Shown here piece after piece: positions 3,139-21,698 of a stretch of DNA of 64,000 nt. A program made the position numbers and the translations under genes. Numbering within the stretch: the stretch's first letter is position 1; each line of letters begins with the position of its first letter. The stretch is from Salegentibacter mishustinae (GTDB lineage Bacteria; Bacteroidota; Bacteroidia; Flavobacteriales; Flavobacteriaceae): positions 434,001 through 498,000 of the forward strand of contig NZ_LLKN01000002.1 in the NCBI RefSeq assembly GCF_002900095.1, read 5' to 3'. The notes beneath the pieces were generated by a model, which made no database searches, was not told the DNA's origin, and saw nothing but the letters and a program-made list of their open reading frames with translations.

Positions 3139-6100
3139 ATGCTAAAGAAATTTATAGAAAGACCGGTATTATCTACGGTCGTTTCCATTATAATTGTGGT
3201 ATTGGGTGTGTTGGGAATTTCAACACTGCCTGTAACGCAGTATCCAGATATTGCCCCTCCAACGGTTCAGGTTTCGGCTAATTTCCCGGGGGCAAATGCT
3301 CAAACAGTACTGGAGAGTGTAATTATTCCCATTGAAGAGCAAATAAACGGGGTTGAGGGAATGGATTATATTACCTCTACTGCCAGTAACAACGGTAGTG
3401 CCAGTATACAGGTATTTTTTGACCAGGGAGTAGATCCAGATATTGCCGCGGTAAACGTTCAAAACCGTGTGGCACGTGCTACACCTTTACTGCCGCAGGA
3501 AGTAACCCAATCTGGGGTAACCACGCAAAAAGAACAAACCAGTGCATTGATGTTCTTTACCGTGGTTTCAGACAACGAAGAATATGACGCAACTTTTATT
3601 CAGAATTACCTGAATATTAACGTGATTCCAGAATTACAGCGTATTAACGGGGTTGGGAACGTAAATGTATTTGGCGCCAAGAAATATGCGATGCGAATCT
3701 GGCTTCAGCCTGAAAAATTAGCGGCTTATAATTTAATCCCTTCAGATGTTATTGGAGCTATTAATGAGCAAAGTCAGGAAGCTGCTGCGGGATCTTTAGG
3801 TCAAAATAATGCTGAAGCTTTTGAATATGTACTGCGTTATAGCGGAAGATACCAGGACGAAGATCAATACCGAAATATTATTATTAAAGCCCTTGATAAT
3901 GGGCAATACCTAAGGTTAGACGATGTTGCAGAAGTTGAACTGGATGCCGAAGGTTATAATGTTATTGGATATACCAATGGTAAGCCAGGAGTGAATATGG
4001 CTGTTTACCAAACGCCAGGTTCTAATGCCCAGGAAATTATTGAAAATATTCACCAGAAGCTGGACGAAATGGAAGAAGATTTTCCAACCGGGCTTTCGGT
4101 ATATATAAATTTTGATACCAACGAATTTCTTACCGCTTCTATAGATAAAGTGATTTTAACGCTTATTGAAGCGTTTATACTGGTATTTATTGTAGTTTTT
4201 ATATTTCTTCAGGATTTTAGGTCTACCCTTATTCCTGCTATTGCGGTACCGGTTTCCATAATTGGTACATTCTTTTTCTTAAACCTGTTTGGGTACTCTA
4301 TAAACTTACTAACGCTATTTGCGCTGGTACTGGCTATTGGTATTGTAGTAGATGATGCTATTGTAGTAGTAGAAGCCGTACATGCAAAAATGGAAGAAGG
4401 AGCTAAAGATGCCATAAGCGGTACAAGAAAAGCGATGGACGAAATTACCGGGGCGATTATTTCTATTACGCTGGTAATGGGAGCGGTATTTATTCCCGTA
4501 ACTTTTATCACGGGACCCACAGGAGTTTTCTATGAACAATTTGGGGTGACTTTAATTGTAGCTATTGCAATATCTGCAGTTAATGCTTTAACTTTAAGTC
4601 CTGCGCTTTGTGCCATTTTCTTAAAACCACATCGTGAAGACGAAGAACATAAGAAAAAGAATTTTTTACAGCGCTTCTTTAGTTCGTTTAATACCGCTTT
4701 TAAAGTAACTACTGACAAGTATGTGAATTCCCTTTCATTTTTAAGTAAACATAAGTGGATTACAGGGCTAATCCTTGTAGCTGCGGTACTTGCTATATTT
4801 TGGGGAGCTAAGACTACTCCAACCGGTTTTGTACCAGATGAAGACCGCGGAATATTATTTGTAAATGTTGAATTACCTGCCGGTGCTTCTTTAGACAGAA
4901 CCGTGGGAATTACTTCAGAATTAGAGAAAAAAGCACAACAAATAGAAGGTGTACAGGGTGTTTCTTTAGTAAATGGTTATAGTTTAATTGGTGGAGCAGG
5001 TAGTAACTATGCACTTGGTTTTATTAAATTAGACGACTGGAGTGAACGTGAAGAAGATCACCTATCGGTAGAATCTATCCAGGGACAATTATTTCAAATT
5101 GGCGCTTCATTTTCTGATGCTGAAATGCTATTCTTTTCTCCTCCCAGTATTCCAGGTTTTGGAGTTTCAGGGGGATTTGAAGCTAAATTGTTAGATAGAT
5201 CAGGTGGTAGTTTCCAGGAACTGGATACCCAAACCCAAAATTATATTGCAGCGCTTTCCCAAAGACCGGAAATTCAGTATGCACAAAGTTCTTTCAACAC
5301 AAATTATCCGCAGTATGAAATGGATTTAAATATTCCGAAAGCTAAAGAAGCAGGCGTGGATATTTCTACCATCTTCTCAACATTACAAGGGTATATTGGA
5401 AGTATTTACGCAGCAGATTTCTCTAGATTTGGTAAACAATATCGTGTGTATGTTCAGGCTTTACCTGAAGATCGCGCCGGCACCGACGATTTAAATTCTC
5501 TATTTGTAAGAAATTCCCAGGGAGAAATGGCGCCTTTAAGTGAATTTGTAAGCTTAAAACGGGTTTATGGTCCGCAATCGGTAACCAGGTTTAACCTGTT
5601 TAACTCGGCAACTATAAACGGTGCCCCGGCTCCGGGATATTCTTCTGGAGATGCTATTGCAGCAGTACAAGAAGTAAGTGCAGAATCACTACCCTCTAAT
5701 TTTAGCGTAGATTATAGCGGACTTACCAGGGAAGAAGTTTCAGCAGGTTCACAGACTACTTTTATCTTGATTTTAAGTATTCTGTTTGTTTACTTCATTC
5801 TTTCAGCTCAATATGAAAGTTACCTTATTCCTTTCGCAGTGCTACTTTCATTGCCGGTTGGGGTAATGGGCTCTTACCTGGTAACTAAATTCACAGGGCT
5901 TCAGGCAAATATTTATTTCCAAATTGCTTTAATAATGCTGCTGGGGCTGCTGGCTAAGAACGCAATTCTTATTGTAGAGTTTGCCATGCAACGAAGGCAG
6001 GCAGGCCTTTCTATTGTAGATGCTGCCTTAGAGGGTGCAAGAGTGCGGTTAAGACCTATTTTAATGACCTCTTTTGCCTTTATTATTGGTTTACTTCCTT

Positions 6101-18382: not shown

Positions 18383-20281
18383 ATGAGTGACGCCTTAAAA
18401 CACGAATGTGGGATTGCCCAAATACGATTGTTAAAACCCCTGGAATACTATAAAGAAAAATATGGTACAGCCTTTTACGGGATTAACAAAATGTATTTAA
18501 TGATGGAAAAACAGCATAACCGCGGCCAGGATGGCGCCGGTTTTGCTAACATCAAATTAAATACCGCCCCTGGAGATCGCTATATAAGCCGAATTAGATC
18601 TAATGCGGCACAACCAATTCAGGATATTTTTGAGCAGATAAACGGAAGAATTAACGACGAAATTAAAGCCAACCCTGAGTATGCTGATAATGTTGATCTT
18701 CAAAAAAAGAACCTTCCTTATGTAGGGGAAGTTTATCTTGGGCACGTTCGCTACGGGACTTTTGGAAAGAATAGTATAGAAAGTGTACACCCGTTTCTTA
18801 GACAGAATAACTGGATGCATCGTAACCTGATTGTTGCGGGGAATTTTAATATGACCAATGTAAACCAGCTTTTTAATAACCTTGTAGAACTTGGGCAGCA
18901 TCCAAAAGAAAAAGCCGATACCGTTACGGTAATGGAAAAAATTGGTCATTTCCTGGATTCTGAAGTAGAGAAACTCTATAAAAAATTAAAGAAACAGGGA
19001 TTCTCTAAAGTTACTGCTTCTCCTTTAATTGCTGAGAAATTAAACGTGGCAAAAATTCTTAGAAAATCTTCTAAAAACTGGGATGGCGGTTATGCTATGG
19101 CAGGTATGTTAGGCCACGGAGATTCATTTGTTTTACGTGATCCTGCAGGAATTCGTCCCGCGTATTATTACAAAGACGACGAGGTGGTGGTAGTGGCATC
19201 AGAAAGGCCGGTAATTCAAACTGCCTTTAATGTAGACTTTAATGATGTTCACGAATTGCCGCCGGGACACGCTATTATTACCAAAAAAAGCGGAGAGGTA
19301 AATATTAAAGAAATCCTTGAGCCTTTAGAGCGAAAAGCCTGTTCTTTTGAGCGTATTTATTTTTCCCGCGGAAGCGATGCCGAGATCTATAAAGAACGTA
19401 AAATGCTTGGGCGTTTATTGATGCCTGAAGTACTAAAATCTATAAACCACGACACGATCAATACGGTCTTCTCTTTTATTCCAAATACTGCGGAAACAAG
19501 TTTCTACGGGATGGTAGAAGCCGCACAGGATGAATTAAACAAGCAGAAGAACGATGCAATTCTAGCTGAAAAAGATACGTTAACCGATGCGCGACTTCAG
19601 GAAATACTTGCGCACAGGTTACGTACCGAAAAAATTGCGATTAAAGACGTAAAGCTTAGAACTTTTATTACTGAAGATAGCAGCCGGGACGACCTTGTGG
19701 CCCACGTGTATGACGTGACCTACGGGGTGGTTAAACCAGAAGACAGTCTTGTAATTATAGATGATAGTATTGTTAGGGGAACCACTTTAAAGAAAAGCAT
19801 CATAAAAATGATGGATAGGTTAAATCCCCGTCAGATTGTAGTAGTTTCTTCGGCACCACAAATTCGCTATCCAGATTGCTACGGTATAGATATGGCTCGC
19901 CTGGAAGGTCTTGTTGCTTTTAGAGCAGCCCTGGAGCTTCTAAAGGATAATAATCAGTACGATATTGTAGAAAAGGTTTACGAGAAGTGTAAACTTCAGG
20001 TAGATCTTGCCGATGAAGAAGTGAAGAATTTCGTTAAGGAAATCTACGAACCTTTTACCGATGAGCAGATCTCAGATAAAATTTCAGAATTGCTTTGCGA
20101 CACCGATGTAAAGGCAGATGTAAAAGTGATATACCAAACGGTAGATAATTTGCATAAAGCCTGCCCTAAAAACCTGGGTGACTGGTATTTTACGGGTAAC
20201 TATCCAACAAATGGTGGTAATCGCGTGGTAAATAGAGCTTTTATTAATTTCTATGAAGGAAACGAAGGAAGAGCCTATTAA
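18383..20281 (+). CDS. purF: Amidophosphoribosyltransferase (long Bacteroidota form)
   Basis: A 632-residue class-II glutamine amidotransferase/phosphoribosyltransferase. The nucleophile is Cys9 after a short propeptide (HECGIAQIR); the amidotransferase half also shows HNRGQDGAGFA and VYLGHVRYGT. The PRPP-binding loop is VIIDDSIVRGTTLKKS. The protein is about 120-150 residues longer than E. coli PurF, as in a common Bacteroidota paralogue, so the genome may hold a second, shorter purF. It converts PRPP and glutamine to phosphoribosylamine in the first committed purine step. The first of three sRNA units begins within about 10 bp of the stop codon. Confidence 0.9.
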   Translation: MSDALKHECGIAQIRLLKPLEYYKEKYGTAFYGINKMYLMMEKQHNRGQDGAGFANIKLNTAPGDRYISRIRSNAAQPIQDIFEQINGRINDEIKANPEYADNVDLQKKNLPYVGEVYLGHVRYGTFGKNSIESVHPFLRQNNWMHRNLIVAGNFNMTNVNQLFNNLVELGQHPKEKADTVTVMEKIGHFLDSEVEKLYKKLKKQGFSKVTASPLIAEKLNVAKILRKSSKNWDGGYAMAGMLGHGDSFVLRDPAGIRPAYYYKDDEVVVVASERPVIQTAFNVDFNDVHELPPGHAIITKKSGEVNIKEILEPLERKACSFERIYFSRGSDAEIYKERKMLGRLLMPEVLKSINHDTINTVFSFIPNTAETSFYGMVEAAQDELNKQKNDAILAEKDTLTDARLQEILAHRLRTEKIAIKDVKLRTFITEDSSRDDLVAHVYDVTYGVVKPEDSLVIIDDSIVRGTTLKKSIIKMMDRLNPRQIVVVSSAPQIRYPDCYGIDMARLEGLVAFRAALELLKDNNQYDIVEKVYEKCKLQVDLADEEVKNFVKEIYEPFTDEQISDKISELLCDTDVKADVKVIYQTVDNLHKACPKNLGDWYFTGNYPTNGGNRVVNRAFINFYEGNEGRAY

Positions 20282-20321
20282 GTGCATTTAAACAAATTTT
20301 TCTACCTTTCATCTAAAATGA

Positions 20322-20352
20322 TTTTTAGCAGGGCTAAGTTTATATACTTTAG
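20322..20352 (+). promoter_or_regulatory. Promoter of sRNA copy 1
   Basis: TTT at the -33 position (20322-20324), 20-bp spacer, TACTTTAG at 20345-20352 as -7 box (7/8 to TAnnTTTG). The same architecture recurs in copies 2 and 3, with a better -33 in those. Confidence 0.6.
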
Positions 20353-20356
20353 CAGA

Positions 20357-20432
20357 ACCATAAACATAAGTAGGTTAAGTTCATGGTAGATTTGGGGCAA
20401 AAAAAGGTGGATCTAACGATCTGCCTTTTTTT
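20357..20432 (+). ncRNA. Candidate small RNA, copy 1 of 3
   Basis: A predicted 76-nt transcript beginning 5 nt after its -7 box. It contains hairpin 1 (ACCAT at 20357-20361 with ATGGT at 20383-20387, extended by AAC/GTT), a single-stranded segment TAGATTTGGGGCAAA, and an 11-bp terminator hairpin at 20403-20428 ending in seven T residues. Compared with copies 2 and 3 it has one extra A in hairpin 1 and one G-to-A change before the terminator, and is otherwise identical up to the terminator loop. The unit starts right behind the purF-like gene, but the terminator is far enough that it could also end purF readthrough. No known RNA family is recognised. Confidence 0.75.
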
Positions 20433-20654
20433 ATTTTTATCTGAATCTGAAAAATTCTTCAAAGGAAATTACACAGACGAATTGAAAGAAAGCAACTGAG
20501 GATCAATCTCATAAAGTATTATCATAAGAAATTTGATTTAGAAGTGAGTATTAAATCAATTATTCTCGATTCTGGAATGAAATAAAAATTATCCTACATT
20601 AATTTTTGATTATCAATACTTTAAACAAATAAATATGCCTTTGGTCTAAAATAA

Positions 20655-20685
20655 TTGCGAGCAAGGTTTATTCGTTATACTTTAG
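20655..20685 (+). promoter_or_regulatory. Promoter of sRNA copy 2
   Basis: TTG at 20655-20657, 20-bp spacer, TACTTTAG at 20678-20685. A conserved upstream block (CCTTT, 2 nt, TCTAAAA at 20638-20651) is shared with both other copies. Confidence 0.7.
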
Positions 20686-20689
20686 AGTC

Positions 20690-20764
20690 ACCATAACATA
20701 AGTAGGTTAAGTTCATGGTAGATTTGGGGCAAAGAAAGGTGGATCTTACGATCTGCCTTTTTTT
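20690..20764 (+). ncRNA. Candidate small RNA, copy 2 of 3
   Basis: A predicted 75-nt transcript. Hairpin 1 pairs ACCATAAC (20690-20697) with GTT-c-ATGGT (20711-20719) around a 13-nt loop. The linker is single stranded and G-rich. The terminator stem AAAGGTGGATC (20735-20745) pairs with GATCTGCCTTT (20750-20760) with two G.U pairs, then seven T residues. The first 56 nt are identical to copy 3. Homology to copy 3 extends about 100 bp upstream of the start, so the promoter was duplicated with the RNA. Confidence 0.78.
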
Positions 20765-20909
20765 ATGACCTTAGAAAAGCGCTAACTTATCTCCATACAC
20801 CACTCTGCAATTTTTTCCAGTTAAGAAACTCGATAAAAAAGTATTTTTCCTACATTATTTTATGATTTTCAATGCTTTAACAAATAATTATGCCTTTGGT
20901 CTAAAAAAG

Positions 20910-20940
20910 TTGCGAGCAAGGTTTATTCAGTATACTTTAG
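20910..20940 (+). promoter_or_regulatory. Promoter of sRNA copy 3
   Basis: TTG at 20910-20912, 20-bp spacer, TACTTTAG at 20933-20940; spacing identical to copy 2. Confidence 0.7.
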
Positions 20941-20944
20941 AATC

Positions 20945-21018
20945 ACCATAACATAAGTAGGTTAAGTTCATGGTAGATTTGGGGCAAAGAAAGGTGGATC
21001 AATGATCCGCCTTTTTTT
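20945..21018 (+). ncRNA. Candidate small RNA, copy 3 of 3
   Basis: A predicted 74-nt transcript. Hairpin 1 uses 20945-20952 with 20966-20974. The terminator is AAAGGTGGATC (20990-21000) with GATCCGCCTTT (21004-21014), a 3-nt loop and seven T residues. Relative to copies 1 and 2 one G.U pair has become G-C and the loop has changed entirely, so the stem rather than the sequence is conserved. It is convergent with sodA, whose own terminator lies at 21036-21064. Confidence 0.78.
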
Positions 21019-21035
21019 ATTTTAAACATTCTGAT

Positions 21036-21064
21036 AAAAAAAAGACCGCTCTATGGCGGTCTTT
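21036..21064 (-). terminator. Terminator of the superoxide dismutase gene
   Basis: AAAGACCGC and GCGGTCTTT arms with a 6-nt loop. On the minus strand it is followed by eight T residues. Confidence 0.9.
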
Positions 21065-21089
21065 TAATTTATTTAGAAATAACTAATTA

Positions 21090-21698
21090 TTACTTCTGCT
21101 TAGCATATCTGCTTCCTACTTCTTTCCAGTCGATAACATTAAAGAATGCATCAATATAATCTGGACGACGGTTTTGGTAGTTTAGGTAGTATGCGTGCTC
21201 CCAAACATCAATTCCTAAAATTGGAGTTCCTCCGCAGCCAATTCCTGGCATTAATGGATTATCCTGATTTGCAGTAGAGCAAATTTCTACCTTTCCACCT
21301 TCGTGAACACAAAGCCAAGCCCATCCAGAACCAAACTGTCCTGCGGCTGCTTTAGAAAATTCATCTTTAAAAGCTTCAAAAGAACCAAATGCGTTATCTA
21401 TCGCTTTCGCAAGATCGCCTTCTGGTTTCCCGCCACCATCTGGAGACATGATTTCCCAAAATAATCTGTGGTTATAAAATCCGCCACCGTTGTTTCTCAC
21501 AGCAGTATTAGATTTATCAAGATTTTCAAGGATATTCTCTATGGTTTTTCCTTCAAGGTCGGTGCCTTCAATTGCAGCGTTTAATTTCTTAGTATAACCT
21601 GCGTGGTGCTTGCCGTGGTGAATTTCCATGGTTTTCGCATCTATATGTGGTTCTAATGCATCAAAAGCATATTTTAACTTTGGTAACTCAAAAGCCAT
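21090..21698 (-). CDS. sodA: Superoxide dismutase, Mn-type (Fe/Mn family)
   Basis: A 202-residue Fe/Mn superoxide dismutase. Metal ligands are His27 (HHGKHHAGY), His77 (FYNHRLFW), Asp164 and His168 ([10 protein letters not shown]). The glycine stretch NNGGG before the second ligand and Gln145 in NQDNPLM are the Mn-type arrangement rather than the Fe-type. It has no signal peptide and is cytoplasmic, dismutating superoxide to peroxide and oxygen. A minus-strand TAAATTTG -7 box lies at 21737-21744. A cambialistic enzyme is possible. Confidence 0.95.

Follow-up and report, generated by a model that had tools for sequence, protein, structure and literature searches.

The region between two genes that we take to be purF and sodA, both recognised from their sequences without a family search, was analysed in Salegentibacter mishustinae (Flavobacteriaceae). 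It lies in a stretch of 64,000 nucleotides from contig NZ_LLKN01000002.1 (NCBI RefSeq assembly GCF_002900095.1, positions 434,001 to 498,000), herein the window, and holds three tandem, autonomous units that together span window positions 20281 to 21018. Each unit has, in this order, an upstream direct repeat, the box TACTTTAG, a hairpin of 30 to 31 nt, an exposed AGAUUUGGGGC within the linker AGATTTGGGGC, and an intrinsic terminator. Judging from sequence comparisons, we read the units as sibling small RNA (sRNA) genes whose products would act by base pairing under a two-component regulator and would be buffered by a sponge RNA in some relatives; we give this reading a probability of roughly 60%. 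The features are listed below in window coordinates, the operator-like sites with their position weight matrix (PWM) scores.

20281..20324, + strand: operator-like site of copy 1, a LytTR-like direct repeat with a 20-bp period; PWM score 25.2, the best in the window (23.9 with another background)
20345..20352, + strand: -7 box TACTTTAG of copy 1
20357..20432, + strand: sRNA copy 1, from the predicted 5' end to the terminator
20357..20387, + strand: 5' hairpin of copy 1, from folding and the consensus structure
20388..20398, + strand: single-stranded linker AGATTTGGGGC of copy 1, from folding and conservation; complementary to the candidate sponge of relatives
20399..20432, + strand: intrinsic terminator of copy 1, whose stem covaries among homologues
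20614..20657, + strand: operator-like site of copy 2; PWM score 22.4
20678..20685, + strand: -7 box TACTTTAG of copy 2
20690..20764, + strand: sRNA copy 2 (hairpin 20690 to 20719, linker 20720 to 20730, terminator 20731 to 20764)
20869..20912, + strand: operator-like site of copy 3; PWM score 17.3, weak by score alone
20933..20940, + strand: -7 box TACTTTAG of copy 3
20945..21018, + strand: sRNA copy 3 (hairpin 20945 to 20974, linker 20975 to 20985, terminator 20986 to 21018)
18383..20281, + strand: purF (named by sequence recognition), conserved upstream neighbour on the same strand as the sRNAs
21090..21698, - strand: sodA (named by sequence recognition), conserved convergent downstream neighbour

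An original prediction, made from the sequence of the window alone, had placed three copies of about 75 nt, each with a promoter, a hairpin, a linker and a terminator, between purF and sodA; all of these parts were located as claimed, with the hairpins starting at 20357, 20690 and 20945. The units follow each other at start-to-start distances of 332 and then 254 to 255 nt. The close relatedness of the copies that had been described is likewise seen in the alignment: copies 2 and 3 are identical over columns 2 to 59 of alignment A2 (56 nt from the first base of the hairpin), and copy 1 departs from them here in two places, with an extra A in the hairpin and an A for a G before the terminator. 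All three copies fold more stably than their dinucleotide shuffles (z = -4.0, -3.7 and -5.3 for copies 1 to 3; equalled by 1, 0 and 0 of 200 shuffles, respectively). The units are predicted to be transcribed. A blastn search of the organism's own genome (99.96% complete) returned these three copies only.

The original prediction had recognised no named family in the units, and the Rfam searches agree: at the gathering score only a tRNA was matched in the window and no family was returned for the sRNA units, and a search up to E 10 over 20250 to 21090 gave 48 matches, all of them sub-threshold for the sRNA units. Between the last sRNA and sodA, positions 21033 to 21066 form a hairpin that carries runs of T on either strand and is probably the terminator of sodA.

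Conservation and synteny in Flavobacteriaceae

An 80-nt query found a match in 31 of 60 genomes, which correspond to 31 of the 37 genomes of the window's family-level group (Flavobacteriaceae, herein f1) and to none of the 23 outside it; G029 gave only a partial match of 27 nt. Because the units are conserved across genomes of the family, a chance origin is excluded. A covariance model was built from 31 non-redundant copies (alignment A3) and run, with stricter filters on, against 395 genomes of the phylum. At E<1e-12 it matched 33 of 41 f1 genomes and none of the 354 others; homologues thus exist elsewhere, as a model of this kind had been expected to reveal if the units form a family. Weak matches (E up to 0.01) appeared in three further f1 genomes and in 51 outside f1 (best 4.6e-5); the best of those outside (G173, locus L130) consists of the terminator only, without the core, and was set aside.

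Scanning a collection of named genomes for the exact core gave at least 118 stretches; the counts for named loci given here are those of the 80 listed. These 80 bear the name of a flavobacterial genus or of Flavobacteriaceae or Flavobacteriia, except for three uncultured or unnamed Bacteroidetes/Bacteroidota records, and we take the genera concerned to be members of Flavobacteriaceae. Inspection at purF of 14 f1 genomes that lack a strong match (13 past the end of the gene, L268 over its first part only) revealed no diverged copy, and at three loci (L257, L258 and L266) purF lies beside sodA with the sRNA absent. G391 carries a strongly diverged copy between purF and sodA (L129); at 4004 to 4072 this copy keeps TTTGGGGGCAAA and the terminator, its hairpin is altered, and it offers a natural variant for mapping of the core.

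The location of the units is fixed. Among 60 loci collected by similarity or with the model (L004/L090 and L028/L111 overlap), purF is present in 57, sodA in 48, both in 47 and neither in 2. For the 80 named loci the figures are 57 with both genes, 12 with purF only, 7 with sodA only and 4 with neither, so that 76 touch purF and/or sodA; wherever either gene is present in these loci, the cluster lies on the purF strand and sodA is convergent. The gap from purF to the cluster ranges from 65 to 231 nt, and relatives have one to six sRNA copies at the locus. Where purF and sodA have become separated, in G021 (L018/L125) and G028 (L026/L126), one sRNA copy is kept beside each gene. A hairpin insertion, ACCATAAACAT, is found in one copy in 10 of 15 genomes of the same genus (nine in the set, plus L134).

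Extra sRNA copies away from purF-sodA were observed in single genomes (L117, L118, L119, L122, L123, L124 and L127); both extra copies of L127 have a shortened linker, GGGTAAAA. At L006 (1203 to 1351) the upstream region of a copy incorporates the 5' end of the preceding one, a fusion such as unequal recombination of tandem units would produce. Two genomes of the same genus hold a copy of the core with one mismatch, GGTAGATATGGGGCAAA (L327, 1219 to 1235, and L330), which adjoins an inverted repeat and, by eye, the apparent start of a small frame of the helix-turn-helix type.

Tandem arrangement, together with the few extra copies elsewhere in single genomes, is also what a functionless tandem repeat, mobile or passive, would give, and the original prediction had named a scattered mobile repeat lacking promoter conservation as the finding that would speak against it. 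The contrary was observed. The location is fixed across the family, promoter, operator and terminator are conserved while the spacers between units have diverged, the paralogues are stable, and the exact 34-nt core is absent from viral contigs; we regard a repeat of this kind as hardly credible.

The core itself, from the hairpin CC to GATTTGGG, is invariant at 34 of 38 positions in the 31 non-redundant copies of A3; purF of other genera is 69 to 78% identical to that of the window. Paired positions of the hairpin show only A-U/G-U exchange plus one mismatch, and the eight pairs with double changes all lie in the terminator. As the hairpin is nearly invariant while the terminator covaries freely, the sequence itself must be constrained, and not the structure alone. 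A coding role offers no explanation: some copies have an open frame for a short peptide, ATGGTAGATTTGGGG (17 codons in copy 2 of the window), but it was rejected because its length varies from 6 to 26 and because the frame after ATGGTA differs between lineages with GGTA-GATTT and lineages with GGTAAGATTT. With promoter, hairpin and terminator conserved, distinct paralogues and no conserved reading frame, the observation of three sRNA units is confirmed, and their interpretation as a family of sibling sRNAs is supported and extended by the results below.

The nearest named candidates are the FopS/GibS sRNAs of Bacteroides (RF04319; PMC11697453), which are also multicopy sRNAs of Bacteroidota, end in a terminator and have short blocks near TTCATGG and AGATTT in common with the units; of the Bacteroidota sRNA families with weak Rfam matches, FopS shares the clearest blocks. 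The units could on this basis be a Flavobacteriaceae branch of the FopS family, which silences SusC-like transporters: the blocks TTCATGG(TA) and AGATTT are shared, both sets are multicopy within one phylum, and RF04319 matches every copy weakly (16.5, 17.3 and 19.7 bits; 20.2 bits when copy 3 is searched by itself). The gathering score, however, is 56 bits, far above these values, and 544 or 71 of 20000 shuffles are as similar as the single pair chosen, before any correction for the many families. In PMC11697453 the published FopS model has no 5' hairpin, its 5' part being single-stranded, and FopS has RbpB as a partner and SusC starts as targets; our sRNA shows a 5' hairpin both in each copy and in the consensus, no RRM_1 protein was found in the own genome, and SusC starts are not preferred. 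RF04319 matched 3 of 296 phylum genomes, none of them in f1. Membership was rejected on score, 5' structure, the missing RRM partner protein and the missing SusC preference, and we consider it very improbable. One RF04319 match in another family of the order (L036, 1501 to 1569; 43.9 bits) comprises an antisense start codon and a terminator and was judged to be chance; it illustrates that this model can match antisense starts.

The upstream operator and a complementary element in relatives

To describe the promoters, 265 distinct copies were reduced to 158 upstream regions with less than 75% mutual identity, on which the operator PWM is based. A TAnnTTnG box is conserved in these regions and is preceded by two half-sites that resemble each other. 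The column autocorrelation has its maximum at 20 bp, with shoulders at 19 and 21, and none of 2000 column permutations reaches this maximum. The conservation of the upstream site, which like the synteny across the family and the candidate sponge was not part of the original prediction, extends further than that of the '-33' TTG. When the PWM is run over the window, the three sRNA sites occupy the top three ranks, the best unrelated site scoring 16.4 versus 17.3 for copy 3. A YpdB-like half-site, GCATTTCAT, is present in 14 of the 158 regions (shuffled mean 0.055) and an AlgR-like half-site, CCGTT[CT]GTC, in 4 (shuffled mean 0.02).

LytTR sites are described in PMC4847170 as repeats of 9 to 11 nt with a spacer of 11 to 13 nt, the YpdB site being GGCATTTCAT; the AlgR site, from PMC4064291, is CCGTTCGTC. 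The sRNA operators resemble the sites of these LytTR response regulators in having a pair of direct repeats separated by about two helical turns and half-sites near GGCATTTCAT and CCGTTCGTC. Eight LytTR genes are present in the own genome. In G008, of the same genus, an extra sRNA copy lies ∼0.8 kb downstream of a LytTR regulator paired with a histidine kinase (L120, 1250 to 4071); as one case among several extra copies, this proximity may be due to chance. Given the resemblance of the sites, the activator of the sRNA promoters is most likely a LytTR-type two-component response regulator.

An element complementary to the sRNA was first met in relatives as partial cores without terminators (L128, ∼3960 to 4031; L133, ∼2000 to 2037; L136, ∼2001 to 2075). 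When 146 bases of L136 were used as a query, matches at E up to 0.001 were obtained in 97 of 199 f1 genomes, many of them to the sRNA itself (query positions 67 to 100); the best 30 places with loci (L297 to L326, from 30 different genomes) were examined as candidate sponge loci. An ABC-transporter gene is present in 26 of these, scoB in 26 and both in 22, in convergent orientation; the element sits downstream of the scoB stop codon, on the scoB strand. It is laid out as an operator-like site, a -7-like box and then sites complementary to the sRNA, and all of this lies on the strand complementary to the sRNA.

Scored with the operator model, for which sRNA promoters were the only training set, the complementary strand reaches at least 11.8 in all 30 loci (median 14.5). 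Dinucleotide shuffles of the sponge windows score 6.5 (SD 2.4), with 2.6% reaching 11.8 and 0.13% reaching 14.5; the mean on the other strand is 4.0 (29 of 30 loci scored), and coding stretches of the sponge loci give 4.0 (SD 2.5; maximum 13.0 in 300). The -7-like box, which is absent in 4 of 30 loci, lies at a distance of 26 from the second half-site in 18 and of 27 in 8, compared with 36 (90 regions) and 37 (28 regions) for the 125 measurable sRNA promoters among the 158, so that the sponge spacing is one helical turn shorter. Operator, spacing and synteny of the sponge were not selected for by the search.

With the core of window copy 2, and with intramolecular structure ignored, the best duplexes of the 30 loci range from -34.4 to -52.7 kcal/mol, versus about -21 (SD 3) for shuffles, with z below -3 in every locus; the reverse strand gives -13 to -26. 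Defining a strong site as a duplex of -28 kcal/mol or better, we find one in 5 loci, two in 19 and three in 6, and none in 297 of 300 shuffles. Taken on its sequence features, the element looks like a co-regulated sponge RNA of the sRNA. Its interpretation as a same-sense decoy in the 3' untranslated region (UTR) of the ABC-transporter gene was dropped, the operator and -7-like box being on the opposite strand.

As the element follows the scoB stop codon on the same strand as scoB, which is in reach in 26 of 30 loci, it might instead be a natural target or the 3' UTR of scoAB, in which case the sRNA would regulate decay of scoAB and sequestration would be secondary. An operator-like site precedes the complementary sites in 30 of 30 loci and a -7-like box in 26 of 30, which speaks against this, and 25 of the 30 carry two or three strong sites, as would suit an independent transcript; we consider the scoAB explanation unlikely.

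Further candidates were sought in the own genome and its genus. A combined operator-plus-duplex screen, which recovers all 30 known sponges, was applied to 654,584 bases of the own genome (about a sixth of it; overlaps not removed) and returned 10 rows, or 9 places. The best has a duplex of -35.3 kcal/mol and an operator score of 13.4, inside the range of the sponges. The 9 places were judged to be chance because operator and site lie in one long open frame in eight and the site does so in the ninth. Inspection of 19 inexact core matches from 15 genomes of the same genus and of one in G021 gave a best preceding operator score of 9.7 and no sponge. Seven f1 genomes without the sRNA (G016, G017, G018, G024, G029, G030 and G036) gave no match to the L136 query.

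Proposed mechanism, targets and related systems

We propose that a LytTR-type activator would bind the direct repeat of 20-bp spacing that precedes each copy, switching all copies on together, so that copy number would set the dose. The RNA of about 75 nt would present a small loop, GUAGG, and the linker AGAUUUGGGGCAAA beside a weak hairpin, and would act in trans by base pairing, with linker, loop and 3' hairpin arm as the regions that contact other RNAs; the terminator hairpin would end and protect it. In some relatives a matching operator would drive a second RNA from the gap between scoB and the ABC-transporter gene, whose one to three strong complementary sites would sequester the sRNA; such a sponge could set a threshold or speed shut-off, and one signal would then give rise to both the sRNA and its trap. 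In the genus of the window, the sRNAs seem to work with no sponge that could be detected here. Base pairing as the mode of action is suggested by the similar operators and the antisense sites taken together. In its broadest form the proposal is a family-wide RNA switch, in which one LytTR operator design fires both the purF-sodA sibling sRNAs and a multi-site scoB sponge in many genera, from promoters that differ by one helical turn, and without Hfq or an RRM chaperone (one genome checked); for this form we would put the odds a little below even.

Of the two functions offered in the original prediction, pairing with RNA fits better and titration of a protein fits worse, on the basis of the complementary element in relatives. 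Were the sRNAs to titrate an RNA-binding protein in the manner of CsrB, the hairpin and GGGG linker would be the protein site, additional copies would raise the dose and the complementary element would be an antidote RNA. Such a role would agree with a 5' part that is nearly invariant throughout in sequence and structure, stem arms included, and with a linker that has no preference for translation starts. The motif, however, occurs once per sRNA, unlike in CsrB, and a conserved RNA that is complementary to linker, loop and 3' arm and lies behind a similar operator has the look of a base-pairing partner. Because relatives carry an element complementary to the linker segment behind a similar operator, RNA pairing is favoured, and protein titration appears unlikely.

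Several observations weigh against base-pairing sRNAs under a shared LytTR operator. Both hairpin arms are nearly invariant, which pairing by loop and linker alone would not need, and degenerate copies occur (the third copy of L121, both copies of L127, and L129). The 20-bp period of the sRNA operator is slightly shorter than that described for LytTR sites in PMC4847170, and the operator model is not very specific, with 140 sites scoring at least 11 in the 654,584 bases of the own genome. The repeat inside the sponge operator also peaks at 20 bp, yet 71 of 1000 column permutations reach that peak. As the sponge loci were found via core similarity, their complementarity is partly selected for; being mutually homologous, the 30 loci are one element seen in 30 genomes and not independent cases. 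The L136 query found only sRNA copies, and no sponge, in the Salegentibacter own genome and in G003, and it gave no sponge match in sRNA-bearing genomes of the GGTAAGATTT lineages (e.g., G015, G025 and G032). If the sponge is real in these lineages, a site with a matching extra T, AAATCTTACC, would be expected; AAATCTACC would count against it.

Nor is any class of targets supported. The 18 SusC-type starts pair no better than 99 other starts (p = 0.91), and over 375 own-genome genes the linker does not favour translation starts over the interiors of genes. The start-interior difference is 1.05 for the linker (shuffles 1.10, SD 0.24) and 0.36 for the loop (shuffles 0.77, SD 0.32); the same test does find a preference for the FopS seed (R1; -0.24 versus 0.49, SD 0.30). 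Compared with its mononucleotide shuffles, the linker pairs somewhat better with start regions (-10.8 versus -9.3, SD 0.65, on every fourth region; -9.1 versus -8.3, SD 0.45, in the 375 genes); this edge is read as an effect of composition, because it is equally large for gene interiors. The five best linker duplexes are also stronger than those of shuffled linkers (-18.5 versus -16.5, SD 1.0). The best start-region duplex of 117 was that of purF; it was set aside, as the pairing involves the apparent terminator hairpin of the upstream gene. Exact 11-mer complements occur at two non-sRNA places in the own genome, with no start-codon context found at these places, where genes were not called. 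Hfq was not found in the own genome, and RRM_1 (PF00076) gave 0 matches there, with a control matching 2 of 14 genomes, Bacteroides among them; an sRNA chaperone, if there is one, would therefore be another protein.

The closest arrangement in kind is that of Qrr1-4 and QrrX in Vibrio, where sibling sRNAs share a pairing region and a dedicated RNA pairs there; according to PMC9732341, Qrr1-4 are under LuxO, the QrrX sponge is under the LysR-type QrrT, and the system works with Hfq. It differs from ours in these separate regulators and in Hfq, as here the operators of the sRNA and of the candidate sponge, which mostly has two or three strong sites, are similar and Hfq was not found; the comparison is one of arrangement. 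Among sRNAs of Flavobacteriaceae, PMC9723704 describes the Rfp transcripts of Flavobacterium psychrophilum, some of them conserved outside the species; Rfp18 differs in pairing with metalloprotease mRNAs through a third stem-loop, and the purF-sodA sRNA may be among the independent transcripts Rfp1-89. That source also mentions Flavo-1 RNA, an Rfam motif that is likewise widespread in Flavobacteriaceae; it is not among the 48 Rfam matches noted above for 20250 to 21090. Among the papers listed in open-literature searches on the core, on sRNAs near purF and sodA, on paralogous flavobacterial sRNAs and on sponges in these bacteria, none describes the purF-sodA sRNA family in its title or the opening of its abstract.

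We regard the units as a new RNA family of a known type, with a notable twist in relatives, where one operator design precedes both the sRNA and a candidate antisense sponge. In our judgement, regulatory RNA in Bacteroidota beyond Bacteroides is little explored, and the genome that carries these units has no detectable Hfq or RRM protein. Here a core is nearly unchanged across genera whose purF is 69 to 78% identical to that of the window, and it is accompanied by candidates for the regulator class and for the sponge. The covariance model can be used for the annotation of many genomes, and the targets, the regulator and the sponge idea become directly testable in laboratory flavobacteria that are harmless. 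If the proposal is true, a built-in, co-regulated pair of sRNA and sponge would have been kept over the depth of a bacterial family.

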